Source: an uncultured Rhodopila sp.
GTDB lineage: Bacteria > Pseudomonadota > Alphaproteobacteria > Acetobacterales > Acetobacteraceae
Length of the DNA stretch: 64,000 nt
Assembly (NCBI RefSeq): GCF_903915725.1
Contig: NZ_CAIWTY010000086.1
Span: 1 to 64,000 of the forward strand
Direction of reading: 5' to 3'
In this document: one piece after another, positions 6,865 through 19,468 of the stretch
Position numbering within the stretch: the first letter of the stretch is position 1
How the letters are laid out: each line of letters starts with the position of its first letter
The notes under the pieces: model-generated
Told to the model about the DNA's origin: nothing
The model's input: the letters and a program-made list of their open reading frames with translations, nothing else
Databases searched by the model: none
Position numbers and translations under genes: made by a program

Positions 6865-8052
6865 TCATTCCTTGCGCGCGGTCGTCTCCGGCACGCGTTG
6901 CGTCGCGATGGTCAGTTGGTCCGACTCGATACGGGTCCCCCCAATGCGGCCGAACAAAGCATCCAGGTCGGTCGCAAGCTGATCGGGCAACCGCGCCGAG
7001 GATGCGCCGAGCAGCGCATGCGGCAGTTCCGGGGTGATGTCCCGGTCCGCGAACCAGCAACGAATCCGCTGGCTCACCGCGGCCGCGGTCAAACCGTTCG
7101 GCTGCCGCCGACCGGGGATCGATAATGGCGCGGAACCGCGCAGTTGCGCTCCGTCAACCGCGCCGGCCGGGAAAACCGGTTTTGCGGTGCCGTCTTCGTT
7201 CATAGCGACACAGTACAGGTAACCGTCCGTGCTCGCCGTCACGGTGACTGCGACCGGTTCGCCAGAGCGGTATTCCGGGTGCCTCCCCCGGTCGGTCGTG
7301 ATCCACACCTCCGGCCCAGCGACCGAACGGCTGAGCCTTTTCAGTTCCCCATCAAACTGGTCGTGGCACCCAAGCACCAGCCCGGCGGCGATCCGTGCCG
7401 GCCCGTTGGCAATGTTCGATGGAACGCCGCGGAAGGTGACTGTTGCCCGCGCCGCACCGCCGGTGGTGATCTCAAATTGGCTGCCGTCCTCTATCGGCAC
7501 ATCCGCGGGCCATTCTATCCGCTCCGCACCGGCCGGCCAGCCCAGCGTCCTGCTGCTACCCTTGCGCCGCAGCGCGTAAACGCCGGTCTCACCCGATGGC
7601 CGGGTGATCCACACCGATGTCGCGGACTCGACGCAATAGGTGCCGGAACGCTCGGGATCGACCTGGACATCGTCCAGCATTGGTCCGGACTGCGCCGAAC
7701 CCGTCGATCGCGTGCCGCCGATAACCGTAGCATCGACCCCGTGCATGCGAAACATGTCGGCCAGCATGGCGGCGTCTCCCGCAGCCCCGGCCGGTTGCTG
7801 CTGCGCCAGGGTGCCCTCAAACGGCCCGCGCAGGCGCAACGTTGCGCCGGACTGGAACAACAACGTAGCACTCGCACCCTCCGGCAAACTCAGCCGATCG
7901 GCGGAGGAAACCACCATGCCGGGGAGGTAGCCGGGCACGGTGGAGGCGAGCAGCACGGCATCCTCCGCATTGGCGGACCCCGGGCGGAGCGCCGCAACAG
8001 CCAGACTCGCACACACCACGGTCCGACTTAGGTAGTTCGAGATGCGCAGCAT
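6865..8052 (-). CDS. secreted FecR-like/DUF4384 protein
   Basis: A 395-residue exported protein. The signal peptide is MLRISNYLSRTVVCASLAVA with a likely cleavage after SANA (about 29). Residues ~35-90 resemble a FecR-type sheet (LPEGASATLLFQSGATLRL). The region about 265-340 is a DUF4384 domain (YRSGEPVAVTVTASTDGYLY, then PVFP), the same domain found at the end of the CsgG-like lipoprotein at 11.8-13.4 kb. The start at 8052 places AAAGGATC upstream; a GTG at 8082 would add ten residues. It is divergent from the DUF4399 pair, with 196 bp between starts. DUF4384 commonly accompanies caspase-fold or surface-anchoring proteins. Molecular role unknown. Confidence 0.7.
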   Translation of the reverse strand: MLRISNYLSRTVVCASLAVAALRPGSANAEDAVLLASTVPGYLPGMVVSSADRLSLPEGASATLLFQSGATLRLRGPFEGTLAQQQPAGAAGDAAMLADMFRMHGVDATVIGGTRSTGSAQSGPMLDDVQVDPERSGTYCVESATSVWITRPSGETGVYALRRKGSSRTLGWPAGAERIEWPADVPIEDGSQFEITTGGAARATVTFRGVPSNIANGPARIAAGLVLGCHDQFDGELKRLSRSVAGPEVWITTDRGRHPEYRSGEPVAVTVTASTDGYLYCVAMNEDGTAKPVFPAGAVDGAQLRGSAPLSIPGRRQPNGLTAAAVSQRIRCWFADRDITPELPHALLGASSARLPDQLATDLDALFGRIGGTRIESDQLTIATQRVPETTARKE

Positions 8053-8198
8053 GATCACAGATCCTTTTGCGTCGTGGTTCACTCTGGCGATTCCTGCGGC
8101 GGGACGCTGTGGAACCGTTCACAGTCCCGGCCTCGCGAGCGGGATAACGTAAAGTTTCATTGAGAGGATAAGATGAGGAACCCGCAATGTGCCGGACA

Positions 8199-8207
8199 TG
8201 CGATAAT
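8199..8207 (+). promoter_or_regulatory. candidate extended -10 promoter for the DUF4399 pair
   Basis: TGCGATAAT at 8199-8207 matches an extended -10 element (TG-N-TATAAT, one mismatch), 42 bp ahead of the first DUF4399 start. No good -35 is visible, which extended -10 promoters tolerate. A GGAAC at 8177-8181 lacks a CGTT partner at 16-17 nt, so an EcfG promoter is not supported. Confidence 0.3.
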
Positions 8208-8248
8208 ATAAGTATTCGTTTGCATCGGGGCGATCAAGGGAAACGGAC

Positions 8249-8680
8249 ATGAAGAAAAGGCACCTGTTCGCTTGCGTTCTCGCCGTATTGCCAGGCATCG
8301 CTGGCGGTGCCCACGCAGATCCAAAACCAATCGCGGAAGGCGCGAAGGTTTACATTATCTGGCCGCAGGATGGGCAGGTGATCCCCGGCGGAAAATTCTG
8401 GATTCGCATGGGCCTGAGCGGCGCGGGTGTCGCTCCGGCGGGGATCGAGAAGGCGAATACCGGTCACCACCATATACTGGTCGATACCGATCTGCCGCCG
8501 CTCGATCAGGAAATTCCCAACGACAAAAACCATCTCCATTTCGGCAAAGGCCAGACCGAGGCGCGCCTGGAGCTGCCGCCCGGAAAGCACACGATTCAGT
8601 TGCTGTTCGCGGACGATGCCCATGTGCCGCACAACCCGCCGCTATATTCAAAGAAAATCACAATCATCGTCCCGCCGTGA
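8249..8680 (+). CDS. secreted DUF4399 protein (first copy)
   Basis: A 143-residue exported protein with signal peptide 1-24 (cleavage after AHA). The rest is one DUF4399 domain. Histidines cluster in three conserved spots: TGHHHILVD (71-79), NHLHFGKGQTE (94-104) and AHVPHNPP (124-131). That distribution suggests metal binding in the periplasm, but the family has no established function that I can cite with confidence. The ATG follows AAGGGAAA. A second DUF4399 gene starts 12 bp downstream, so the two are one operon. The domain is known mostly as a stand-alone secreted protein in Proteobacteria. Confidence 0.8.
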   Translation: MKKRHLFACVLAVLPGIAGGAHADPKPIAEGAKVYIIWPQDGQVIPGGKFWIRMGLSGAGVAPAGIEKANTGHHHILVDTDLPPLDQEIPNDKNHLHFGKGQTEARLELPPGKHTIQLLFADDAHVPHNPPLYSKKITIIVPP

Positions 8681-8692
8681 AGGAGAGGTCGC

Positions 8693-9217
8693 ATGCATGA
8701 ATTGAAACGCCTGACCATTCTGGCCGGCGCTCTAGCGGTTGCGTGGGTTGCCGCACCGGCCTTTGGGCAAGCCCCTTCCACAACGCCGGATGCCGCGCAC
8801 GATCATGCCGCGCCCGAGGACGGCTTCAAGCGGACCCCGGCCCCCGCGGACGCATACGTCTATATCGGTTGGCCAAACGATAACGAGACGGTGCATACGA
8901 CGCACGTCCATGTCTGGTTTGGCACGCGAAACTTCGGTGTCGCGCCGGCGGGAACCAACAAGCCTAACACCGGCCATCATCACCTGCTGATCGATACGCC
9001 GCTGCCCCCGATGGACCTGCCGATACCGAACGATAAGAACCACCTTCACTTCGGGTTGGGCCAGACGGAAACGTTTGTGGACCTGCCCCCGGGCACGCAT
9101 ACTTTGCAGATCCTGATGGGCGACGCAGACCATGTCCCGCACGATCCGCCACTGATGTCAAAGAAGATCACGATCCATGTCGTCGGGCAGGACAATAAGG
9201 TGTCGCAGGCGCATTGA
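8693..9217 (+). CDS. secreted DUF4399 protein (second copy)
   Basis: A 174-residue exported paralogue of the preceding gene. It has an N-terminal signal (about 1-25, ending AFG) and then a linker rich in Ala, Pro and His (AAHDHAAPEDG) that the first copy lacks. The DUF4399 domain keeps the same motifs: TGHHHLLIDT (93-102), NHLHFGLGQTE (116-126) and DHVPHDPP (146-153). A strong AGGAGAGG precedes the ATG. The core sequences differ enough that the duplication is not recent. The pair may form a heteromer or serve different ligands; nothing in the sequence decides this. Confidence 0.8.
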   Translation: MHELKRLTILAGALAVAWVAAPAFGQAPSTTPDAAHDHAAPEDGFKRTPAPADAYVYIGWPNDNETVHTTHVHVWFGTRNFGVAPAGTNKPNTGHHHLLIDTPLPPMDLPIPNDKNHLHFGLGQTETFVDLPPGTHTLQILMGDADHVPHDPPLMSKKITIHVVGQDNKVSQAH

Positions 9218-9242
9218 AAGCGCGGCACCGGCGGTCAAATCT

Positions 9243-9272
9243 TCGTGGCGGGCAGGGCCGCCATCCACGCCT
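9243..9272 (+). repeat. degenerate single arm of a palindromic intergenic repeat
   Basis: This stretch, in the 139-bp gap between convergent genes, shares the string GCCATCCACGCCTT and the flanking GTGGCGGGC with the repeat element at 29,018-29,140. It folds only imperfectly (GGCGG/CCGCC). A decayed copy of the same REP-like family is the simplest reading. Confidence 0.5.
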
Positions 9273-9356
9273 TCGATGATGCGAGCCAATCGTTTATGCC
9301 GGCCTTTTTCGGCACGGCCGGGCGGCTTGGTTGACGGTGTCGCCCGACCGAAACGC

Positions 9357-11837
9357 CTACTCCGTATCCCGCGCCACGCGGAAGCCGTTTACGATATACC
9401 GTACCGAAGCGTCGTAATTTCCCCGATACGTTACCGTAATTTCGTCGTGTGGTGACCGGAACGACCCCCCTCGAAGCACACGTTTGTCGCAAGCCTTGCC
9501 CTCCCGCGGGGTCGAGTCGGTCGGCGCGCCGCGATAGGTCGGGAACCAGCAATCCGCAGTCCATTGCGCAACGCCACCGAGAATGTCGTACAGCCCAAAG
9601 GGATTGGGAGACATTGCATCCACCGGCATGGGTGCATAGGGGTCCTGCGTCCCACCGCAATCCGTGCAGTTCGCCAGCGACATGCCGACGGATTCACCCC
9701 ACCAGTAACGCGTGGTCGTTCCGCCGCGCGCCGCGTATTCCCATTCCGCCTCGCTCGGCAACCGATACGGATGCCCGCCGATGCTCGACAGCCAGGCCAT
9801 GTATTGCCCGACATCTTCCCAGCTTAGATTGTGGACGGGCGTGCGATCTTCGGCGACCCGCATGCGCGGCATGAAATTGCACGCCCTGGCCGCCATGCAC
9901 GCCTTCCATTCCGCCACCGTGACCGGAGTCAATCCGATAGCGAAAGAATGGACCTCCACCCGGTGGGCGGGAAGCGACTCGGGATCGTGCGCGCCCAGCC
10001 CCATCATGAAGCTACCCGCCGGGATGCGCACCATGCGCGGACAGGTCGGGCAGTCCTGAAACCGGTTCGCATCGGCGCCCTGGCCACGTGGCGCCGTCGA
10101 TACTCCGCCCATTGGCGGAACATTGGTCGCGACGACCATCGGTGGTGACGGAGCCGCCGGCTTGGGCGCAGGCGCTTCGGCTGGCGCATTCGCCGGAACC
10201 GTAGTCTGCGTCTTGGTTAGCTCAGCCTTGCCGCCGGCATGCGACCTGGCCGTATCAGCCACCTCCATGCGTCGGTGCCTAGCCTCCTCAGCGTAGCGTG
10301 ATGCCGGGAACAAGCGCAGGAACAGATCGAGTTCGGCTGGGTCCGTGCTGGTGCGAATGGTTTGCCACAAAGCCGCCTCCGGCCCCGGGTCGCTGATTCC
10401 GGACGCCGCGCCGACCTCGACATCGAGCGAACCCTCAGCCGAACCGCCATGGCCGTTATCCACGGTGTAGCGCAGGCTGCCCGCGGGTCCGGTGAAACCG
10501 GCTTCGGGCCAGAATGTCAGCTTGGTCAGTTCCTGCGGGGTCACGTGGTCGCCCGCACGCAGAAGCGCGGCCCCGTTGCGAACGGTGCCGCGTGGCAACG
10601 CGGTGATTGTGACGGTCAGCGGGTCGCCGTCCGGGCTGACTGGCGCAGGGATGCCCAACACCTGCTGGGCCACCTGAACGCGGTCCGGACCCGACAGGAC
10701 CGGCGGATGATGCGACGACCGCACGGTGATCGGCAGACTGGCGGTCACGCTTCCGCCGCGCCCATCTTCGATCAGGACATCGAGCGTTCCAGCCGAACCG
10801 ATGCTCTTGCCGTCCGGCTTGTAGACGGCTGTGTTCAGCCGCTCGGCTGACACCACCGTGTTGAGGGTCGCCGCACGGCCGTCGATCCGCACCTCGCCAA
10901 ACCGCGGCAGGCCGATGATGCGTACGGTCAACGGGTCCTGGTCGGGGTCGGTCGGTTCCGGCAATCCCAGCGCGGTCGGGCCGGACGCTTCGGTCACCTC
11001 CAGCGGCGCGACCGAGCCGATGACCGGTGGCCGGTTCGGCGGCCTCGGGTAGAAAAAGAACGGTTCGGCCCCCAGCGAGCTGAAGACATACGGTTCCTGC
11101 CGGTTATTGGTGGCACGCAGCACGGTGTCGCGCACGCTTCGAAAGAACAGGCTCAGCTCCAGGCCCGGGATCTGGAAATGCGCCAGCAAAGCGCTCGAAA
11201 ACGGGCTGTGTTCCAATCCGTCTTCAGCGATCTGATCGGCCTTCGCCGCCATCACCACCATGGTATTGCGCGGCACGTTGTCCACCCGTGCCAGCCCGGG
11301 CGTGGTCGCCACCGCGCGCCCCGCAATATTCATGGACCGCGAGACGCGTTCGATGAACGGATTGTTGCGGCAGCTATCGAGCAGGATGATGCCAATCCGG
11401 GACGCCTGCGATACCTCGCCTAGCAACCGGTCAAGCGGCATGGCTTCATACAGCAGGTCCCGCTCGCGTTCGAGTTTGGCGTCGGCCGGGATGAGGTAGT
11501 TCTCCTTGTCCACCTGCACGCCATGGCCGGCATAGTAGACGACCGCCACGTCGGCGGAGGCCGCGCGGATGCCGAACGCGCGGATGCCGCTGTTCAACGC
11601 GCGGAAGTCCGGATCGTAGAGTTCGGTGACGTCGAACTTCAGGCGGCGAAGGCTGTCGCCGATGGCGCGCGCGTCGTTGACCGGATTAGCCAGATGGGGG
11701 GCGTTCTGGTAGCTGCTGATGCCGATGACCAGCGCGATCCTTTGCTCGTCGGCGCGCGCGCCATGCGCGGCCACCAGCAGCCACAGGAACAGCACTGCGC
11801 GAACCGAAGGGAACGCGCGAACACAAACGGAGATCAT
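9357..11837 (-). CDS. secreted caspase-fold protease with Ig-like repeats and FGE-sulfatase-fold domain
   Basis: An 826-residue exported protein (signal 1-29, AHGARA). Residues 31-260 are a peptidase C14/caspase-like domain with the His-Cys dyad intact: H105 in YYAGHGVQ and C156 in ILLDSCRNNPF. Two cadherin/Ig-like modules follow (about 270-370 and 370-480, each with DPLTV), then a Pro/Ala linker. A formylglycine-generating-enzyme/EgtB-fold domain spans about 593-826 (IPAGSFMMG, RLPSEAEWEYAARGG, VLRGGSFRS). The paired active-site cysteines that follow RGGSF in true FGE enzymes are absent, so this domain probably binds or scaffolds instead of oxidising cysteine. The gene overlaps the upstream CsgG-like gene by four bases (ATGA). 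The caspase likely cleaves after Arg/Lys like other prokaryotic members; targets are unknown. Confidence 0.85.
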   Translation of the reverse strand: MISVCVRAFPSVRAVLFLWLLVAAHGARADEQRIALVIGISSYQNAPHLANPVNDARAIGDSLRRLKFDVTELYDPDFRALNSGIRAFGIRAASADVAVVYYAGHGVQVDKENYLIPADAKLERERDLLYEAMPLDRLLGEVSQASRIGIILLDSCRNNPFIERVSRSMNIAGRAVATTPGLARVDNVPRNTMVVMAAKADQIAEDGLEHSPFSSALLAHFQIPGLELSLFFRSVRDTVLRATNNRQEPYVFSSLGAEPFFFYPRPPNRPPVIGSVAPLEVTEASGPTALGLPEPTDPDQDPLTVRIIGLPRFGEVRIDGRAATLNTVVSAERLNTAVYKPDGKSIGSAGTLDVLIEDGRGGSVTASLPITVRSSHHPPVLSGPDRVQVAQQVLGIPAPVSPDGDPLTVTITALPRGTVRNGAALLRAGDHVTPQELTKLTFWPEAGFTGPAGSLRYTVDNGHGGSAEGSLDVEVGAASGISDPGPEAALWQTIRTSTDPAELDLFLRLFPASRYAEEARHRRMEVADTARSHAGGKAELTKTQTTVPANAPAEAPAPKPAAPSPPMVVATNVPPMGGVSTAPRGQGADANRFQDCPTCPRMVRIPAGSFMMGLGAHDPESLPAHRVEVHSFAIGLTPVTVAEWKACMAARACNFMPRMRVAEDRTPVHNLSWEDVGQYMAWLSSIGGHPYRLPSEAEWEYAARGGTTTRYWWGESVGMSLANCTDCGGTQDPYAPMPVDAMSPNPFGLYDILGGVAQWTADCWFPTYRGAPTDSTPREGKACDKRVLRGGSFRSPHDEITVTYRGNYDASVRYIVNGFRVARDTE

Positions 11838-13372
11838 CTGATAACCTCCACGGCCAGCCTGGCGTCAGCGACCCGCGCTCCGGGGACCCCGCGAAATTGC
11901 GCGGCGACCTCATCCAGCCCGCTGACCGGCAAGGGTTCAAGATCTTGCGCCTTCAACCGATCGGGCAGGCGCAGCCCGATCTCGGTGTCGGAGCCGAGAC
12001 ACGCGACCGCCTCGGACCCGCCGGGATTGTCGAAACGGAGGGAAAAGGACCGCTCGCCCGCGGGCGGGATTTCAATCTGCTGGCCAGCGCGCAGCAACGC
12101 GTCGGGCTGGAAGCGGTTCGGAAAGATGCGAGCGACCGTGCCGGCGGCGTCCTGGTAGAAACAATAGACATACTCATCCCGGGTCGGCTGCACGGAAAGC
12201 GCCATAGTTTCGCCGACGCGATAGGTCGGCTTCGGGCCGCGCGGGCTGCTGACAACCAGACCCGGCGGCGCGGCGGGCGGCGGCGCGGCCGTGCCTGCGT
12301 CATGCACGGGTGTGACCGCCACGGCTTTCGCGGCCGGATTGCGCGCATCTGAGGCCAGCAGCCGGTAATAGAGATCGAAGTCTACCCGGCCGTTCGGCAC
12401 CAGATCATTCTCCGCCTGATAGCGGGCGATGGCATCGGACAGCGCGGGACCCGACGAAGCGGCGGAGCCTTGCAGGTAGCCTGCCCGCATCAGCGCCGTG
12501 CTGACGAACCGGTTGCTGTCGGCCTCGGTCATGGTGTCATACCAGCCGCGTGCCTCGTTACGGAAATTGGGATTTGTCGATTCGATGCTCAGGCACTGCC
12601 AATAAGGCACGCGAGTCAACTTGCCGAGTACTTCGATGGTTGACAGCTCGATCAGGTTACGCACCGCTTGGTGGAATCCTTCGGACTTGTCCAGCGACAC
12701 GCTGAGCGAGAGGCCGGCCTTGCCGATGAACCCGCCGACATCGGCACCCTTGCCCGACTGCACCACGGCAATCGAGTTGCTTGCCGAAATACCCGGCATG
12801 ATCTGGCGGGTAACGAGCTTTCCCATGTTCAGGTCTATGGAAACGACCGACACAACCTGATAGCCGTTGATGGCGGCGTCAAGTCCGGGGATCGACACGC
12901 CGCCGCTTGCGGAGGATTGCAGGACATTGCTGTCAAGCTGAGTGATCGCGCCGCGCACATAGTAATTCGGTGCGACGAATTCTTTGTGCAAGCCGACCAT
13001 TTCGGAAAGTACTTGCACGTCGAGTTGCGTAGGGTCGTAATCGACAAAGTGAAAGGCATTGCTCTTGGCGGACATGCGGGACACCGCGGTGATGAACATC
13101 TCCTTGGTGCCGGTCGCGATCAGTCCGGTGGCGTCGGGAATGCCGGCCGTGGTGATGTAGATGTCCTGCTTGCCCTGGGCGATGAACATGTCGTCCATGC
13201 AGCGCAGGGCCTCGTTGAAGTTGCCGATGTTACGAACCACCGCGGTGCGCGGATTGGCTGCGTCATAAGCAGTCTGCGGGCGCGTCTGGCAGGCGGCGAG
13301 ACCGGTGAGCAGCGCCATCAGTCCGGCCGCCGGACGTCTGAAGAGCCGAGCAAGCCGGGCCGGTTGTGTCAT
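11834..13372 (-). CDS. CsgG/HfaB-like outer-membrane lipoprotein with PG-binding and DUF4384 domains
   Basis: A 512-residue lipoprotein. ATG 13372 sits after GGTGGAG; the signal ends in the lipobox LAAC with C28. Residues ~45-300 are CsgG/HfaB-like (YYVRGAITQLDSNV, SVVSIDLNMGKLVTRQIMPG, EGFHQAVRNLIELSTIEVLG), the family that forms export pores for curli or anchors the Caulobacter holdfast. About 325-375 looks like a peptidoglycan-binding repeat (ALMRAGYLQG, IARYQAENDLVPNGRVD). The C-terminal part (about 405-490, YRVGETMALSVQPTRDEYVY) is DUF4384. No curli subunit gene is adjacent. Coupled by overlaps to a 48-codon gene upstream and the caspase gene downstream, it probably works with the caspase at the outer membrane. 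Confidence 0.8.
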   Translation of the reverse strand: MTQPARLARLFRRPAAGLMALLTGLAACQTRPQTAYDAANPRTAVVRNIGNFNEALRCMDDMFIAQGKQDIYITTAGIPDATGLIATGTKEMFITAVSRMSAKSNAFHFVDYDPTQLDVQVLSEMVGLHKEFVAPNYYVRGAITQLDSNVLQSSASGGVSIPGLDAAINGYQVVSVVSIDLNMGKLVTRQIMPGISASNSIAVVQSGKGADVGGFIGKAGLSLSVSLDKSEGFHQAVRNLIELSTIEVLGKLTRVPYWQCLSIESTNPNFRNEARGWYDTMTEADSNRFVSTALMRAGYLQGSAASSGPALSDAIARYQAENDLVPNGRVDFDLYYRLLASDARNPAAKAVAVTPVHDAGTAAPPPAAPPGLVVSSPRGPKPTYRVGETMALSVQPTRDEYVYCFYQDAAGTVARIFPNRFQPDALLRAGQQIEIPPAGERSFSLRFDNPGGSEAVACLGSDTEIGLRLPDRLKAQDLEPLPVSGLDEVAAQFRGVPGARVADARLAVEVIR

Positions 13373-13515
13373 GTCGTCAGCTCCACCGATACGGTGGGAT
13401 CGCAGGCCGTGCAACCGTCGCTTGTATCGATCGAAATCATCTCCGCGAAGACTCCGTATCGGATGCCCGGCGGGGTCGCGACAGTCAGGCTGATGGCAAG
13501 ATCCATTATCGACAT
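13369..13515 (-). CDS. 48-residue small protein, translationally coupled
   Basis: A 48-codon frame starts at ATG 13515 after AGGAG (about nine bases upstream). Its stop overlaps the ATG of the CsgG-like gene as ATGA. The product has a Cys pair (DGCTACDP, about 33-40), no clear signal peptide and no family I recognise. The good ribosome-binding site and the four-base overlap are the main reasons to believe it, because the downstream gene's start is thereby coupled to it. It could instead be only a leader that tunes translation of the lipoprotein. The frame stays open upstream of 13515, but that extension shows no domain. Confidence 0.45.
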   Translation of the reverse strand: MSIMDLAISLTVATPPGIRYGVFAEMISIDTSDGCTACDPTVSVELTT

Positions 13516-13726
13516 TCCCGCCGCTCCTGTATGTGAGGGCCATGCCTCACGGACGTAGCATGCCATTACAGCCGTGACTCTACTGTGATCTGGCCAACTG
13601 TGGCGGCCGATTGTTGCATCAATGGCGTCGTTCTGCTTCACGATCGCTTGTGCTGCGGCGCGGTCGCGCCGAACGGACTCGCTATGACAAGCCTTTGCGT
13701 TCAGCATCCCCCCCGGAGGCTGGTGA

Positions 13727-14431
13727 ATGGCGCATGCTCCGACCAGCCGGGAGGACATCCTCGCCGGCCATTTCTTGTTGAGATACCTCCGCCCGGAGGA
13801 ACTTTCCCGTTTGGCGGCGACAGCAATCCTGACCCGCCATCGCACAAACGCAACGATCTTCCAGAAGGGAGATCCCGGACTCAGCATGATGGCGGTCGTC
13901 ACCGGCCGCGTGAAAATCTGCACCTTTTCCGCCGACGGCAAAGAACTGGTGCTCAACATCATCGATAACGGCGGCCTGTTCGGCGAAATAGCGGTGTTGG
14001 ATGGACAACCGAGATCCGGCGACGCCGTCGCGCTGGAGGACACCGAACTGCTGGTGCTGGAGCGTGCGCGCCTGATGCCGTTCCTGACCGCCAACCCCGA
14101 GATTCCGACGCGGCTGATCGCGGTTCTCTGTCAGCGGCTGCGCCAGACCAGCGAAGCGCTGGAAGACGCGTTGCTGCGCGACGCATCATCGCGGGTTGCG
14201 CGCGGACTGTTGCGACTCGCCGGCACGTTCGGCAAGCAGGAGGCGTCGCGCCTGCGCATCGACATCAAGCTCTCGCAACAGCAAATCGGCAACCTGATCG
14301 GCATTTCCCGCGAAAGCACCAATAAGTATATCGTCGATTGGAGCCGCGCGGGCTACCTGGAAGTCAGTAACGGTTTAATAACGATTCTGGACAGGACCGC
14401 GCTTGAAGACCTGTCGCAGGCTGAGCTGTAG
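13727..14431 (+). CDS. Crp/Fnr-family transcription regulator
   Basis: A 234-residue regulator. A cyclic-nucleotide-binding beta roll covers about 20-130. Its phosphate-binding cassette reads GLFGEIAVLDGQPRS (83-97) and retains E87, R96 and S97, matching the Glu and Arg-Ser that contact cAMP in Crp. No N-terminal Fnr cysteine cluster is present. A winged helix-turn-helix follows, with recognition region LSQQQIGNLIGISRESTNKY (182-201). The ATG follows GGAGG. It is divergent from the CsgG/caspase operon (211 bp between starts) and convergent with the adenylate cyclase, which it overlaps at the 3' end by 68 bp. It plausibly reads cAMP made by that cyclase and controls the neighbouring genes; both are inference. 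Confidence 0.85.
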   Translation: MAHAPTSREDILAGHFLLRYLRPEELSRLAATAILTRHRTNATIFQKGDPGLSMMAVVTGRVKICTFSADGKELVLNIIDNGGLFGEIAVLDGQPRSGDAVALEDTELLVLERARLMPFLTANPEIPTRLIAVLCQRLRQTSEALEDALLRDASSRVARGLLRLAGTFGKQEASRLRIDIKLSQQQIGNLIGISRESTNKYIVDWSRAGYLEVSNGLITILDRTALEDLSQAEL

Positions 14432-16250
14432 CCGCACCGGCGGACCGGGCGGTGGCGGAATCGATGCGATAGGCGGCTATCGTGCCATGCCGGCCGCGCA
14501 ATGCAAAGTTCCCGAGAGGAATGCCCGGGCAAAGGCCGCCGAGGCGCAGCCAGGTTGATTCGCCCACCACGATCGTGCAGTAGCGCGGGCCGGGTTCGGC
14601 ATACTCCTTGCCGAGTTGTTCCAACCGCTGGCCGACATTTGCCGTGTCGCCCAGCAGGCAGAACTCCATCCGCGCTCCCTTGCCCAGGCTGCCGGCGACC
14701 ATCGGGCCGGTGTGGAGGCCGACACGCAGGCCGCCCACCGGCAAGCCCTCGGCGCTCCACGAATCGTTCAGGCGCTGCATACCGGCTTCCATCGCCAGCG
14801 CGCAGCGGGCGGCGTTCTGCGCGTCGGCGGTAATGGCCGCCTCATCCAGCCGCGGCACCGGCACGCCGAATACCGCCAGGATGCCGTCGCCGACGAACCG
14901 CAGCAGCACGCCATCATGCCCCATGATCAGGGCGGCCATGGTGTCGATGTAGCGGTCCAGCCAAGCAATCAGCGGCGCGGGTTCCATGCCCTCGCAGATC
15001 GTCGTGAAACCGGCCACGTCTGCGTAAAGGACGGTTGCGGTCAGCTGCCGCGGGACCGGCCGCCCGCCCGCCATGAACAGGTCGCGGTCCTTCATGATCT
15101 CGTTGACAACCGGTTCGCTTACAAAGCGCGAGAACAACGCCCGCAAGGCCTTTCGGTCACGCCGCTCCGCCGCGCTGCGCCAGCCGCGCCCGGCGCCGCC
15201 TGCGATGACCAACGCCAACAAGGGCGCCGCGACCGGAACCAGCACGCCAGTGTATGCGTATGCCGCCAAAACCGCCGTCACGAACAGGATACCGAACGCC
15301 GCGAGCGCCGTCGCGAACAAGTAGCCGGTCACGACAACGCCCAGCGTGACCCCAGCCGCCGCCAATCCCGCCGTTGCCAGAACGGCTGCCCGGGGCATCG
15401 CCGCTTCCGGTTCGGCTCGGCGATCCAGCAGTTGCGCGACGACCTGAGCATGGATTTCGACCCCAAAGCTCGGCGGGCCAAATGTTGAGGCAATCGTGCG
15501 GTGCTCGTCGCTGCCGCTGATGAGGCTGCCAATCAGCGCGACCTTCCCTTTCAGCCAGCCCGCGGGCAGCAAGGCGATCGATTCCGCGGGGTAGGTCGGG
15601 ACGTCGGGTCCGGTATGCGCGCCGCGCGTGCTGCGCCGCCACTCGATCGGGAACGGCCGCACCGGCACCGGGGCGCCGAGCGCGCCAGCCACGGCGGCGG
15701 GAAAGCTCGGCGACCCTGTCACCGGATGCAAAGGCATGTGGTTGCGCACGACATCGTCGAACCGGTCCCGCGCCAGGTTGGCGTCCCCCGAACGCACTCC
15801 TTCCAAAAAACCATCCAAAACGGCCCGCCGATCGGCTGGCATCAGGGTGTCGGGAGCAATGCTGATGGCGACGACGGGAATGTCGTGACGCGTCAGTGCT
15901 CGGTGCAGCGCCGCGTCCTTCGCCGGCTCCGTCGGCCGATCGAGCAGGATATCCAATCCGATCGCGGCGACGCCTTTGCGCGCCAGGGTGTCGATCAGGT
16001 CTGCCAGAAACAGACGATCGACGGGGGAGCGATAGGGCAGCGCGGCCAGCGTTTCCTCGGTGATGCCGACCACGATAACGTCAGGGTTTGGTGCACGCAG
16101 CGGGCCCAGGTAACGGAACGCCAGCGCGTCAAACAGGCCTTGCGCCGCGGCGAGCGGAAACGGCGGCTGCGCCGAGGCCAGCGCAACGGCGGTCGCCCCC
16201 ACCAGCATGAGCGCGATACAGGCTGCCGCGCGCAGTCGCCTTTTATGCAT
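14364..16250 (-). CDS. CHASE2-domain class III adenylate cyclase
   Basis: A 628-residue membrane sensor-cyclase. One N-terminal membrane segment (about 8-27) leads into an extracytoplasmic CHASE2 domain (about 45-280; VIVVGITEETL, AAIGLDILLD, GKVALIGS). Three closely spaced membrane segments follow (about 286-352), then a class III cyclase domain (about 400-600). Metal aspartates are D411 (LYADVAGF) and D455 (FVGDGILAV). The purine/transition-state residues D535, N538 and R542 are present in LLGDTANVGQRLE. The usual base-selecting Lys before the second Asp motif is Arg (LLRFVGDG). Start ATG 16250 fits the membrane segment; a TTG at 16334 is possible. It is third in an apparent operon behind an OmpA-like protein and a small exported protein. 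The CHASE2 ligand is unknown. Confidence 0.85.
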   Translation of the reverse strand: MHKRRLRAAACIALMLVGATAVALASAQPPFPLAAAQGLFDALAFRYLGPLRAPNPDVIVVGITEETLAALPYRSPVDRLFLADLIDTLARKGVAAIGLDILLDRPTEPAKDAALHRALTRHDIPVVAISIAPDTLMPADRRAVLDGFLEGVRSGDANLARDRFDDVVRNHMPLHPVTGSPSFPAAVAGALGAPVPVRPFPIEWRRSTRGAHTGPDVPTYPAESIALLPAGWLKGKVALIGSLISGSDEHRTIASTFGPPSFGVEIHAQVVAQLLDRRAEPEAAMPRAAVLATAGLAAAGVTLGVVVTGYLFATALAAFGILFVTAVLAAYAYTGVLVPVAAPLLALVIAGGAGRGWRSAAERRDRKALRALFSRFVSEPVVNEIMKDRDLFMAGGRPVPRQLTATVLYADVAGFTTICEGMEPAPLIAWLDRYIDTMAALIMGHDGVLLRFVGDGILAVFGVPVPRLDEAAITADAQNAARCALAMEAGMQRLNDSWSAEGLPVGGLRVGLHTGPMVAGSLGKGARMEFCLLGDTANVGQRLEQLGKEYAEPGPRYCTIVVGESTWLRLGGLCPGIPLGNFALRGRHGTIAAYRIDSATARSAGAATAQPATGLQARSCPESLLNRY

Positions 16251-16337
16251 CGCCGACGTTACCCGAAGTCGAACAGACTGTTTCGGGCGGCAACCATCCG
16301 GGCCGCAAGCCATGTTTGACCGGTGGCCGTTCAAAAG

Positions 16338-16688
16338 TTACGGCACCCGTGGCGGCACGCCGATGAAAGGGCCACTACGGACCCCGGGCAGCCTTGGAAA
16401 AGCCCGTTCGGCGTTGTCGTGAGGATACCAGAGCAGCGGATTGAAGGTGCCCCAAGGCCAGGTGGCGCATGACGCAGACCACGGGTACTGGGATGCAAAC
16501 CCGCCAATCAGGTCGTATCGAATAACCACCGGCGGGTTCGCTTTCGGGCGATGGCCTCCGGTTGCGACCGCGGCGTTACCCGCCGCCGTCGCGGTGTCGC
16601 GGACCACCGTCGCCTGACCCCGGTCCACCGCGCGGCCGACGAACAGGACGGCCGCGGCGGCGGAGATCAGCCTGATTCGGGCAACCAT
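16338..16688 (-). CDS. small exported protein, function unknown
   Basis: A 116-residue protein with an N-terminal hydrophobic stretch (about 4-20, LISAAAAVLFVG) that could be a signal peptide. The rest is short, Pro- and aromatic-rich (GGFASQYPWSASC, WPWGTFNPLLWYP), and ends PFIGVPPRVP. I do not recognise the family. It starts 3 bp after the stop of the OmpA-like gene and ends 87 bp before the cyclase start, so the three genes are probably co-transcribed. The envelope location and the position between an OmpA protein and a CHASE2 sensor suggest an accessory role in envelope sensing; that is inference from context. Confidence 0.55.
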   Translation of the reverse strand: MVARIRLISAAAAVLFVGRAVDRGQATVVRDTATAAGNAAVATGGHRPKANPPVVIRYDLIGGFASQYPWSASCATWPWGTFNPLLWYPHDNAERAFPRLPGVRSGPFIGVPPRVP

Positions 16689-16691
16689 GAC

Positions 16692-17369
16692 TCAATCGAC
16701 CCGCGCGAACTGCACGCGGCGATTAACCGCATCGTACTTGTTGCTGACCAGCGGTTCGGCCATGCCCCTGCCCACCAGATCGAGGCGCGAAGGGTCCACA
16801 CCCTGACTTACGAGGTATTCGCCGACGGACAGGGCACGCTTCTCGGACAGGGAGACATTATAGGCGACCGAACCAACGGCATCCGTGTGACCCTCTACCC
16901 GCAATTTGATCGCCGGCGTTTCCTTCATCAACTGAGCAATCATGTCGACCATCTCGTGCGCCGAGTTCGGCAGCGCGGCGGAGTTGAAGCCAAAATTGAT
17001 ATGGTATGCGACCGCGCCGGGTTCGTCCGATGCCTCAGCCTTTTGACCGGGCATGCTGGCGGCGGCTTTGACCACCGGCGCCTGGGCTGATTTCGTCCTC
17101 GCGGACCGCGTGCGCGGTGTCGGAACCGCCTCTGTCGAGACAGGCTGAACCGCGCTCGGCGCGGACGCGGCCTCCGGCATCTGCAAGACGATCGAGCGGC
17201 TTGCGCCTGGGCGCGATTCCGGGATCAGGATGCTGCGAAGCTGCTCGATCGACGGAGCATCGTCGAACACGGCAACCGGCTGGGCCGGCGCGACGCCGGC
17301 AAACAGCAGCATCGCGGCCGACGCCAGAAACGCAATCCGGCTGAAGCGCGAAGAATGGGTGCGGGGCAT
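16692..17369 (-). CDS. OmpA-C domain envelope protein
   Basis: A 225-residue exported protein with signal peptide 1-29 (GVAPA), a variable Ala/Pro/Thr-rich linker (about 55-115) and a C-terminal OmpA-like peptidoglycan-binding domain. The domain shows INFGFNSAALPNSA, LRVEGHTDAVGS and NVSLSEKRALSVGEYL; the diaminopimelate-contacting Asp and Arg lie in GHTDAVG and NRRVQF. ATG 17369 follows AAGGAT. It probably tethers to the cell wall from the periplasm or outer membrane; no beta-barrel is present. First gene of the ompA-like/small protein/CHASE2-cyclase run. Confidence 0.85.
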   Translation of the reverse strand: MPRTHSSRFSRIAFLASAAMLLFAGVAPAQPVAVFDDAPSIEQLRSILIPESRPGASRSIVLQMPEAASAPSAVQPVSTEAVPTPRTRSARTKSAQAPVVKAAASMPGQKAEASDEPGAVAYHINFGFNSAALPNSAHEMVDMIAQLMKETPAIKLRVEGHTDAVGSVAYNVSLSEKRALSVGEYLVSQGVDPSRLDLVGRGMAEPLVSNKYDAVNRRVQFARVD

Positions 17370-17523: not shown

Positions 17524-18393
17524 CTACCCCACCACCACCCGGATTGGCCCGGGTGCATCGGTGACCCAAAGCGGCGCAAATCCCGCCCGGTCGCCATCCG
17601 CCTGCGCCGGTACGGCGTCGTTCTGCAGGAAGTCGATCCGCCGCGCCCGCACATGCCGAACGCCCGGGGCATGCCCCAGCAAATTCAACGGCAGTGCCGC
17701 ACCGTACATCATCGCCGCCGCCGGACCGGAGTACCCGAACAGCACCACAGAAAACCCCGGTTCGCCCGGCACCGCATCGGCGGCCAGACGGAAGGTGCCC
17801 CCGTAAAGGCGCCCCTTGCTGATGATCACGCTCGACGCCTCGGTTTCCGCGCCATCGATCCGCATATGCACCGGCGGGAACCGGTAACGCGTCAGCTCCC
17901 GCATAGACTGCAGCACATAGGCGCCCTTGCCGAGCGCCTTCTTCATCGGAAAAGACATGTTTTGTACCACGTGCGCGTCGAATCCGACGCCCAGCATCTG
18001 CACGAACAGCCGAGTCCCGTCCGGGCCGTTCGCCTGGCCCGGCCACAAGGTGCAGGTGCGGCCGAAGGCCAGCGCTGCGGCGACCGCTTTCGGCGCGAAT
18101 GGCAGGCCAAGCTCGTGCGCCAGCACGTTCGCGGTGCCCAGCGGGATCACCCCGAGCCTGGCGCCCGACCCCATCAGCCCGTTGGCCACCTCGGCGATCG
18201 TGCCGTCGCCGCCGGCCGCGACCACCATTGGTTCGCCGCGCTGCACCGCCTCCTGCGCCAGGGCCTCGGCATGGCCGGCGCGTTGCGTCTCCGCGATGTC
18301 CAGCCGGACCCCGTTGGCGACGAGTACATCCAGCACGCGCCACAACAGGTTCGCGCGCCGACGCCCGGCGACCGGGTTGAACACGACGATCAT
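17524..18393 (-). CDS. diacylglycerol/sphingosine kinase family lipid kinase
   Basis: A 289-residue member of the DgkB/YegS/LCB5 lipid kinase family, which phosphorylates diacylglycerol or related lipids with ATP. The N-terminal VVFNPVAGRRR and the nucleotide motif AAGGDGTIAEVANGL (about 58-72) are intact, followed by GVIPLGTANVLA. The C-terminal half carries the family's beta-sandwich. ATG 18393 gives the canonical start of the fold; a GTG four codons upstream is possible. It is divergent from the LpxH-like phosphoesterase and GT4 genes (254 bp between starts); together they suggest phosphatidate/glycolipid metabolism at the inner membrane. The exact substrate is not readable from sequence. 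Confidence 0.85.
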   Translation of the reverse strand: MIVVFNPVAGRRRANLLWRVLDVLVANGVRLDIAETQRAGHAEALAQEAVQRGEPMVVAAGGDGTIAEVANGLMGSGARLGVIPLGTANVLAHELGLPFAPKAVAAALAFGRTCTLWPGQANGPDGTRLFVQMLGVGFDAHVVQNMSFPMKKALGKGAYVLQSMRELTRYRFPPVHMRIDGAETEASSVIISKGRLYGGTFRLAADAVPGEPGFSVVLFGYSGPAAAMMYGAALPLNLLGHAPGVRHVRARRIDFLQNDAVPAQADGDRAGFAPLWVTDAPGPIRVVVG

Positions 18394-18646
18394 GGCTGGT
18401 AGCACGCCTGGGAGAAACGGCAGTCTGACTGGAAGGGAATCGAGGGAAACCTTGCGCTACGGGACGATCAAAAGTGTATGCCTGCCATCGGGCCGCGTCA
18501 TTCCCGTGACGCCGCCATGACGGTTGAGTTACATTCGTCGTGACAGCCTGTGATCGCTTGCGTCATCGAATCTTAACGCGCGCGGCACACCGAGCGAGTC
18601 TATGTGCTGGCTTCGAATATGAACTCGCGAGAATAAACACCTCGAA

Positions 18647-19468
18647 ATGAACGCCATGTCGCCGATCGGCCTGCCGCCCGCCTACCGGACCATATTCATT
18701 TCGGACACGCACCTCGGCACGCGTGGCTGCCGAAGTGAATTCCTCGCCGACTTTCTCCGCAAATCGAGCTGCCAGAATTTGTTTCTTGTGGGCGACATCA
18801 TCGACGGATGGCGGCTGCGGAAATCCTGGTATTGGGATGAAAGCCACGACGAGGTGCTCAAGCAGATCGTCCGCTACGCCCGCTCCGGCACCGAAGTCAC
18901 CTATATCCCCGGCAACCACGACGAAATGTTCCGCAGCTGGCTGCCCATCGGACTGGAGATCTGCGGCATCAAGATGCGCCGGGAATCGGAGCACACCACC
19001 GCCGACGGCAAGCGCCTGCTGGTGATGCACGGCGATGAGTTCGACAGCATCGTGCGCTACGCCAAGTTCCTGGCGCTGCTCGGCGACTGGGCCTATACCG
19101 CCGCCCTGGGGGTCAACCGCTATTTCAATGCGGTCCGCCGTGTCCTGGGTTATCCGTACTGGTCGCTGTCCGCCTGGCTGAAGCGCCAGGTGAAGGAAGC
19201 GGTCAAGGCGATCGACCGGTTCGAGGCCGCGCTCGCCGCGGAAGCCCGCACCCGCGGCTTCGACGGCATCGTCTGCGGCCACATCCACCATGCTGAAATC
19301 CGAGAGGTCGGCGGGGTGCTGTATCTGAACGACGGCGACTGGGTGGAAAGCTGCACCGCTTTGGTAGAACATCACGACGGGCGGCTGGAGCTGATCGACT
19401 GGGCGGCGCTCAATCGGCTATCGTTCTTCCAACAGCCGCGCGCCAGCCGGATTCCCGCAACTGCCTGA
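18647..19468 (+). CDS. LpxH-like calcineurin-type metallophosphoesterase
   Basis: A 273-residue metallophosphoesterase with the full metal-ligand series: D20 and H22 in SDTHLG, D50 in GDIIDGW, N90-H91 in PGNHDEM, then MHGDEFD and GHIHHAEI. It resembles proteins annotated as UDP-2,3-diacylglucosamine hydrolases, the lipid A pathway step performed by LpxH. It is longer than enterobacterial LpxH (~240 aa), and alphaproteobacteria generally use LpxI for that step, so it may act on a different nucleotide- or phospho-lipid. It is followed 37 bp later by a GT4 glycosyltransferase and is divergent from a lipid kinase, a neighbourhood that supports a membrane-lipid role. Confidence 0.75.
   Translation: MNAMSPIGLPPAYRTIFISDTHLGTRGCRSEFLADFLRKSSCQNLFLVGDIIDGWRLRKSWYWDESHDEVLKQIVRYARSGTEVTYIPGNHDEMFRSWLPIGLEICGIKMRRESEHTTADGKRLLVMHGDEFDSIVRYAKFLALLGDWAYTAALGVNRYFNAVRRVLGYPYWSLSAWLKRQVKEAVKAIDRFEAALAAEARTRGFDGIVCGHIHHAEIREVGGVLYLNDGDWVESCTALVEHHDGRLELIDWAALNRLSFFQQPRASRIPATA

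Follow-up and report, generated by a model that had tools for sequence, protein, structure and literature searches.

A conserved gene block combining an exported caspase, a CsgG/HfaB-like lipoprotein and a CHASE2 cyclase in Rhodopila and relatives: a candidate CRP-controlled fibre secretion system

What might be the function of a compact gene block in which an exported caspase-family protease, a CsgG/HfaB-like lipoprotein, a CHASE2 nucleotide cyclase and a Crp-type regulator lie side by side? The block occupies positions 6865-17369 of a 64,000-nucleotide stretch of DNA from an uncultured Rhodopila sp. of the Acetobacteraceae; this whole stretch, hereafter the window, corresponds to C86 among the 111 contigs that make up a 6.7 Mb genome. 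An earlier reading of the same DNA (the original prediction) took the block for a single system surveying the cell envelope. We consider it rather probable that it supplies pore, protease and control for a CRP-controlled, CsgG/HfaB-type system for secretion and assembly of amyloid-like fibres, in which the caspase would have a processing or licensing role.

All the genes that the original prediction had named were present in Pfam and NCBIfam scans, and are arranged as follows.

6865..8058 (scanned frame 6865-8082), minus strand: secreted DUF4384 protein (Pfam, 38.8 bits), found in 17 of 23 loci
8107..8124: CRP-type palindrome CTGTG-N8-CACAG, in the gap from which the DUF4384 and DUF4399 genes diverge
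8249..8680, plus strand: secreted His-rich DUF4399 protein, first member of a pair (128.9 bits), with conserved TGHHH and NHLHFG
8693..9217, plus strand: secreted His-rich DUF4399 protein, second member of the pair (123.2 bits)
9357..11837, minus strand: exported caspase (C14) with Big_9/cadherin-like domains and a formylglycine-generating enzyme (FGE)-like domain (Pfam)
11834..13543 (open frame), minus strand: CsgG/HfaB-like lipoprotein with peptidoglycan-binding (PG-binding) and DUF4384 domains
13727..14431, plus strand: Crp-type regulator (cNMP_binding and HTH_Crp_2)
14364..16334, minus strand: CHASE2 class III nucleotide cyclase (CHASE2 and Guanylate_cyc)
16338..16688, minus strand: small exported protein of no known family, in the same place in loci L020, L021 and L023
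16692..17369 (open frame to 17672), minus strand: OmpA-like exported protein (OmpA, 78.8 bits)

The stop of the CsgG/HfaB-like gene, whose true start probably lies near 13318-13375, overlaps the start of the caspase gene by 4 bases, the 3' end of the cyclase gene overlaps the Crp gene tail to tail, and for the OmpA-like gene the coding score prefers the start at 17369. A FecR identity for the DUF4384 protein at 6865-8082(-) was rejected, as no FecR match was found at E up to 0.1. The TGHHH and NHLHFG His cluster of the DUF4399 pair (8249-9217) is kept in all seven aligned sequences and looks metal-binding.

The central components of the block occur together. In a set of 250 genomes (searched at order level, own genome included, 58 genera, all rows shown from the same family), the CsgG-like protein had matches at E 0.001 in ten, of which only five were strong: our own genome, G057, G189, G245 and G249, belonging to three of the genera. 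Exactly the same five genomes carried the full-length caspase-FGE protein, the CHASE2 cyclase (E 1e-60) and a match to the profile of SUBA, a secreted repeat protein described below, while at E 1e-60 caspase-FGE was matched only partially in four further genomes. Taken naively, two 5-in-250 sets would coincide by chance about once in 7.8 billion (250 choose 5), a figure that shared ancestry makes far less extreme. Conservation as a block in several genera had been put forward with the original prediction as a check, and it was observed, both in these five genomes and in rearranged form in Azospirillum, Skermanella and Caenispirillum. Among named relatives, uncultured Rhodopila come closest, with 94% identity in the CsgG-like protein, and within the genus of the window the block is patchy, two of the eight genomes listed as own or same genus carrying it. 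DUF4399 follows the block more loosely, with two copies in each of the five genomes and one copy in seven others of the 250; in one of these seven (G184) the end of a caspase-FGE gene lies beside DUF4399 at a contig start, so this genome may be a sixth carrier.

From a named search, 22 relative loci were added to the window, giving 23 loci. They comprise loci from Rhodopila metagenome-assembled genomes (MAGs) (3), Roseicella (2), Dankookia, Paracraurococcus (2), Paeniroseomonas and a Roseomonas MAG, the remainder being from Azospirillum (7), Skermanella, Caenispirillum, Rhodospirillales MAGs (2) and a Geminicoccaceae MAG. Contig ends truncate nine of the 22. Loci that are related do not count as independent, and one genome contributed both L045 and L066. 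Profiles detected caspase in 18 of the 23 loci, DUF4399 in 18, OmpA in 16, Crp in 16 (including that of the window, which its overlap with the cyclase hides from the profile count), cyclase in 15 (excluding a partial match of 89 bits in L055) and a cyclic-nucleotide-binding MscS-like channel in 9 (excluding the window match, which is the Crp, and a fragment in L061). In Azospirillum the order of the block is different and its content much the same. A caspase-FGE protein was found in all eight whole genomes examined, five of them without and three with a caspase at the pore locus, and in Skermanella and one Rhodospirillales MAG the caspase lies in a separate cluster with OmpA, two DUF4399, cyclase and DUF4384 genes. 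Because of this separate cluster there seem to be two sub-blocks, one with the pore and subunits and one with the caspase and sensor, joined in Acetobacteraceae and Azospirillum. The same data bear on the suggestion that these are separately useful envelope genes, neighbours by chance, as the differing order in Acetobacteraceae and Azospirillum, the DUF4399 genes standing alone in seven of the 250 genomes and the lone caspase of the Geminicoccaceae would allow. Nevertheless, however shuffled, the genes are still found as one group or as two sub-clusters, four components share the same five genomes, and CRP-type sites are common to them, so that we regard chance neighbourhood as very unlikely.

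The evidence that points to fibres comes from genes for secreted repeat proteins, to which we gave the working names SUBA, SUBB, SUBD and CYSX. At least one gene of this subunit type adjoins the block in 16 of the 23 loci (SUBA in 8, SUBB in 13, the Cys-rich CYSX in 13 and SUBD in 14), and in our own genome a subunit operon is present on another contig (C33:25898-27934), likewise apart from the block in two other Rhodopila MAGs. The original prediction saw no curli or holdfast subunit adjacent; in view of these genes, the reading that no fibre subunit is involved does not hold, and on the same grounds fibre secretion is to be preferred over envelope surveillance. SUBA is built of repeats of about 36 residues (GGxNxNxAxGxxSxAxQxxxTxGG), SUBB has the repeat GVNxAxGxxSxAxQ, and SUBD consists of an N-terminal part followed by an Asn/Gln-rich tail; in Skermanella, small secreted repeat proteins were recognised by eye. 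None of the scanned subunit-type proteins reached a Pfam or NCBIfam cut-off (the proteins of our own genome were scanned with Pfam alone). The motif G-x-x-[NS]-x-A-x-Q, picked after viewing the proteins, is present at least twice in 27 frames, as compared to 0.05 per shuffled set. The predicted structure of SUBA is a beta-solenoid with a mean predicted local distance difference test score (pLDDT) of 86.7, low confidence being confined to the signal peptide region (residues 1-30).

In some loci SUBA genes form direct repeats around the part of the block containing the channel, OmpA, cyclase and Crp genes (L021:1476-2084 and 7663-8271; L023:12089-12709 and 18202-18822). In one genome the two copies of the pair agree over all of 665 bases, and in another they differ very little, a pattern suggestive of gene conversion or of a recent duplication. 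In Roseicella frigidaeris (G249, L022) this part is absent beside CsgG, where a single SUBA copy remains, and excision by recombination was considered and discarded: a contig of 5,631 bases (C59) from the same genome holds the missing part and ends in a piece of SUBA, and the gap is therefore explained by an assembly break at the repeat.

A circuit in which the cyclase senses the state of the envelope and controls a surface protease and anchors, the repeat proteins being bystanders, would be consistent with the presence of a CHASE2 cyclase, a Crp and exported proteins, with CRP-type sites before the OmpA, DUF4384 and DUF4399 genes, and with the clustering of caspase and sensor genes without the pore in Skermanella and one MAG. 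Since SUBA was found in exactly the same five of 250 genomes as the block, and the subunit genes are fronted by the same type of site, we judge such a surveillance circuit to be unlikely by a good measure. The original prediction of one system is supported as to the conserved unit and the CRP regulon, and a sensing cyclase and a surface machine would fit; its surveillance interpretation is set behind fibre secretion in view of the subunit genes.

The regulation of the block was addressed through its palindromes. In an initial screen of 49 hand-picked intergenic stretches from 14 sources, CTGTG-N8-CACAG, which we take to be a CRP site, was the most widely common palindrome (5 of 14 sources, versus no more than 3 in 20 shuffles). 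When whole loci were scanned later, allowing one mismatch at most to TGTGA-N6-TCACA, 46 sites were identified in 506 kb versus 6.3 expected. The 300 bases upstream of block genes account for 14% of all bases and contain 36 of these 46 sites. Such sites front SUBA, SUBB, SUBD, OmpA, cyclase (L057), channel and the DUF4384/DUF4399 pair, and occur upstream of block genes in Acetobacteraceae, Azospirillum, Caenispirillum and MAGs, which supports a putative CRP-controlled regulon, in line with the original prediction. Our own window and genome are less telling. The window has one CRP-type site (8107-8124) versus 0.8 expected, and in the whole genome the CTGTG form occurs eight times, as often as a backward control; the window alone therefore proves nothing, and it is the conserved place that does, the site at 8107-8124 having counterparts within one mismatch at the same position in L041, L042, L043, L044, L045 and L048.

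The signal read by this Crp would be made by the neighbouring cyclase, in which both metal-binding Asp residues are kept in all 17 aligned sequences. The CHASE2 and Guanylate_cyc domains agree with the CHASE2 adenylate cyclase of the original prediction, the word adenylate being an assumption: specificity position 1 is Arg in all 17, and position 2 is Cys in the window, for which reason cGMP was considered as product, and Ser or Thr in other families, a combination that presumably is more adenylyl-like. Two residue pairs that we take to bind cyclic AMP (cAMP) in E. coli CRP, Arg-Ser and Thr-Ser, are retained in the window Crp, and the cyclase product would most likely be cAMP. Next to the block in other loci lies a cyclic-nucleotide-binding channel of mechanosensitive type (L020:3106-4467, L021:2289-3692, L023:16643-18040), which could be a second receptor for the cyclase product; it was not seen at the window's own block.

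The caspase protein at 9357-11837(-) combines a Peptidase_C14 domain (108 bits), two stretches of Big_9 and an FGE-sulfatase domain (170.9 bits), and is predicted from its N-terminus to be exported. The His-Cys dyad described as intact by the original prediction is present in all 20 aligned caspases, and a C14 fold carrying this dyad places the protein in the caspase clan, as a paracaspase-like enzyme; the domain aligns with the paracaspase MALT1 at E 4.8e-9. A formylglycine-generating enzyme needs a C-terminal pair of active Cys. The FGE part is closest to PvdO, and because no Cys follows the RVLRGGS motif in the window protein, it is probably not a working enzyme of that kind. A second caspase-family gene (67.4 bits) was noted elsewhere in our own genome (L030, C73:1-20000, at about 11333-12022), adjoined by another exported caspase-like frame. 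Taken with the cyclase, a caspase may also bring to mind cell death or phage defence, with the cyclase signalling to the caspase as effector. PADLOC did report matches to Pycsar cyclases (PycC up to 72.7 bits; PycTIR 28.2 bits) and to a caspase model, but these weak matches look like generic ones to shared cyclase and cyclic-nucleotide domains, the caspase is exported rather than cytosolic and the nucleotide-binding protein is a DNA-binding Crp, all of which makes a defence function extremely improbable.

Many bacteria have caspase homologues and, to our knowledge, few of these have been given a proposed function. A homologue in Microcystis is reported to cleave an antitoxin (PMC7935541), and orthocaspases are reported to cleave after positively charged residues (PMC6426788). 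In SUBD, the sequence [AV]-Ser-Arg is kept between the N-terminal part and the tail in 14 of 15 aligned proteins, and our guess is that this Ser-Arg is the cleavage site of the caspase. The closest precedent, by analogy, would be FapD of Pseudomonas, a periplasmic cysteine protease; amyloid secretion is reported to require its active-site Cys (PMC5557850). The full proposal, in which the paracaspase-like enzyme cuts SUBD after [AV]-Ser-Arg and thereby licenses export of solenoid fibres through the CsgG-like pore under CRP control, is possible but doubtful.

As to the pore, the window protein has DUF4384 (78.9 bits) and PG_binding_1 (24.7 bits) domains, and the lipobox Cys is invariant in all 23 CsgG-like proteins. 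HfaB, the best-scoring profile for the pore, is matched in 23 of 23 loci, weakly so, and CsgG is matched in 18 of 23 at E up to 0.1, again weakly. Diverged relatives were noted elsewhere. In another genome of the window's genus (G220), a CsgG-DUF4384 relative is broken by contig ends (L024:211-1146 on C34, and L025 on C56), and L026:7460-10747 (G116) is a frame of 1095 amino acids containing two DUF4384-like stretches, near which tblastn found none of the other block genes. Weak CsgG-type relatives in L027 and L028 (G118, G247) lie near very large secreted-looking frames (999 to 1567 amino acids), neighbourhoods that are perhaps of another secretion type.

Several results weigh against a fibre system. 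The window protein matches CsgG at 17.1-17.4 bits, below the cut-off of 20.8, and HfaB at 36.2-36.8 bits versus an equivalog cut-off of 300; its model is poor (mean pLDDT 57), and no CsgG chain was among the PDB sequences matched with the CsgG-like profile. PDB sequence searches with the SUBA, SUBB and CsgG-like profiles gave nothing useful, and Foldseek returned no significant match for SUBA (best FapC, E 0.015, probability 0.06). Compared with 168 chains, the SUBA structure was closest to beta-helices (SufB/D, Z 11.9), generic beta-helices scoring at least as high as the CsgA fibril (Z 9.7, root-mean-square deviation 7.5) and FapC lower (Z 4.1), and the structure match therefore does not single out an amyloid. 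No subunit profile match was found in Paeniroseomonas, Skermanella or Geminicoccaceae, and in the last of these pore and caspase are unlinked. One of the 15 SUBD proteins (L061) lacks Ser-Arg though its locus has a caspase, and our own SUBA operon is fronted by nothing closer than a site with two mismatches, which adds to the unremarkable site counts of our own window and genome given above.

The HfaB profile also raises the question of whether the block is a holdfast-type anchor. Its pore would then export a small number of surface proteins that fasten a polysaccharide or a layer to the outer membrane, as HfaA and HfaD do together with HfaB in Caulobacter, and no free amyloid fibre would be made. 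HfaB being the best-scoring profile for the pore, with matches in all 23 loci, would favour this, as would the OmpA and PG-binding domains, which suit anchoring, and in Caulobacter crescentus HfaA is described as CsgA-like and HfaB as a CsgG-like lipoprotein that is believed to export surface proteins resembling curlin (PMC6707917). On the other hand, with a score of 36.8 against 300 the block pore is not an Hfa equivalog, ten scanned subunit-type and channel proteins gave no match to any Hfa model (E up to 1), and the long SUBA repeats suit a fibre, which leads us to consider an anchor unlikely. For HfaA and HfaD in particular, NCBIfam gave no match at E up to 1 among eight subunit-type proteins of relatives, those of our own genome having been scanned with Pfam alone. 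The locus differs from HfaABD further in the PG-binding and DUF4384 domains, the caspase, the DUF4399 proteins and the cyclase with its Crp.

The fibre secretion system that we favour draws on gene co-occurrence, repeat proteins, catalytic residues and CRP-type sites, all read from sequence; the pore's cargo, fibre formation, caspase cleavage and the cyclase nucleotide are what we infer. In this scheme the CHASE2 cyclase would sense something outside the inner membrane and make a cyclic nucleotide, most likely cAMP, which the neighbouring Crp would bind to turn on the block promoters. Anchored to the wall through a domain of its own and through the OmpA-like protein, the CsgG/HfaB-like lipoprotein would carry SUBA, SUBB, SUBD and CYSX across the outer membrane, and the repeat proteins would stack outside into amyloid-like beta-solenoid fibres. 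The exported caspase would process a component, perhaps SUBD at the conserved Ser-Arg, and so license secretion or assembly in a FapD-like manner.

How does such a locus compare with known systems? It resembles curli (CsgA-G) in a weak CsgG kinship of the pore (18 of 23 loci) and in secreted Gly/Asn/Gln repeat subunits. In agreement with the original prediction, however, it is not a standard curli locus: our own genome has no curlin repeat (PF07012), CsgE (PF10627) or CsgF (PF10614), and among ten genomes the curlin repeat and CsgF were found in one only (G251), on contigs other than that of the block, and CsgE in none, E. coli controls being positive for all three. That genome, a Rhodopila MAG (L106-L110), encodes curlin repeats together with one CsgF on C9 and another CsgF on C49, besides the block. 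Fap of Pseudomonas is similar in having secreted Asn/Gln-rich repeats and a periplasmic cysteine protease reported as needed for secretion (PMC5557850), but FapD is a C39 peptidase and the enzyme here C14, and FapF is a barrel in place of a CsgG/HfaB-like pore. The same caspase-FGE domain pair has been reported in 33 bacterial metacaspase sequences, for which the available part of the article gives no gene neighbourhood or tested function (PMC3501461), whereas here it is tied to a secretion locus. In Sinorhizobium meliloti, CHASE2 cyclases and the Crp-type regulator Clr are reported to act on genes for periplasmic proteins, with other targets, another DNA box and, as far as the accessible text goes, no caspase or CsgG (PMC5498481). 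No paper was found with both CsgG and DUF4384 in a search from which subscription papers were mostly outside, and a 2012 curli survey has no mention of Azospirillum, HfaB or caspase in its main text, as searched with six terms (PMC3521004). Within the accessible portions of work on caspase-FGE/CsgG, CHASE2/FecR/caspase, HfaA/B/D-CsgG and Azospirillum functional amyloid, no such locus is named. We would place the locus with the CsgG/Hfa/Fap kind; it is neither curli nor an Hfa equivalog.

If our reading is true, it would extend the CsgG/Hfa/Fap kind to bacteria in which we found none described in the literature, and a bacterial caspase would gain a concrete, testable job. Its ties to fibre secretion by co-occurrence, operon structure and shared regulatory sites yield a hypothesis with a candidate cleavage site, in carrier genera that include cultured strains (Azospirillum, Roseicella and Skermanella). 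Should the cleavage of SUBD also prove true, the widespread bacterial caspase-FGE proteins would gain a substrate and a pathway.

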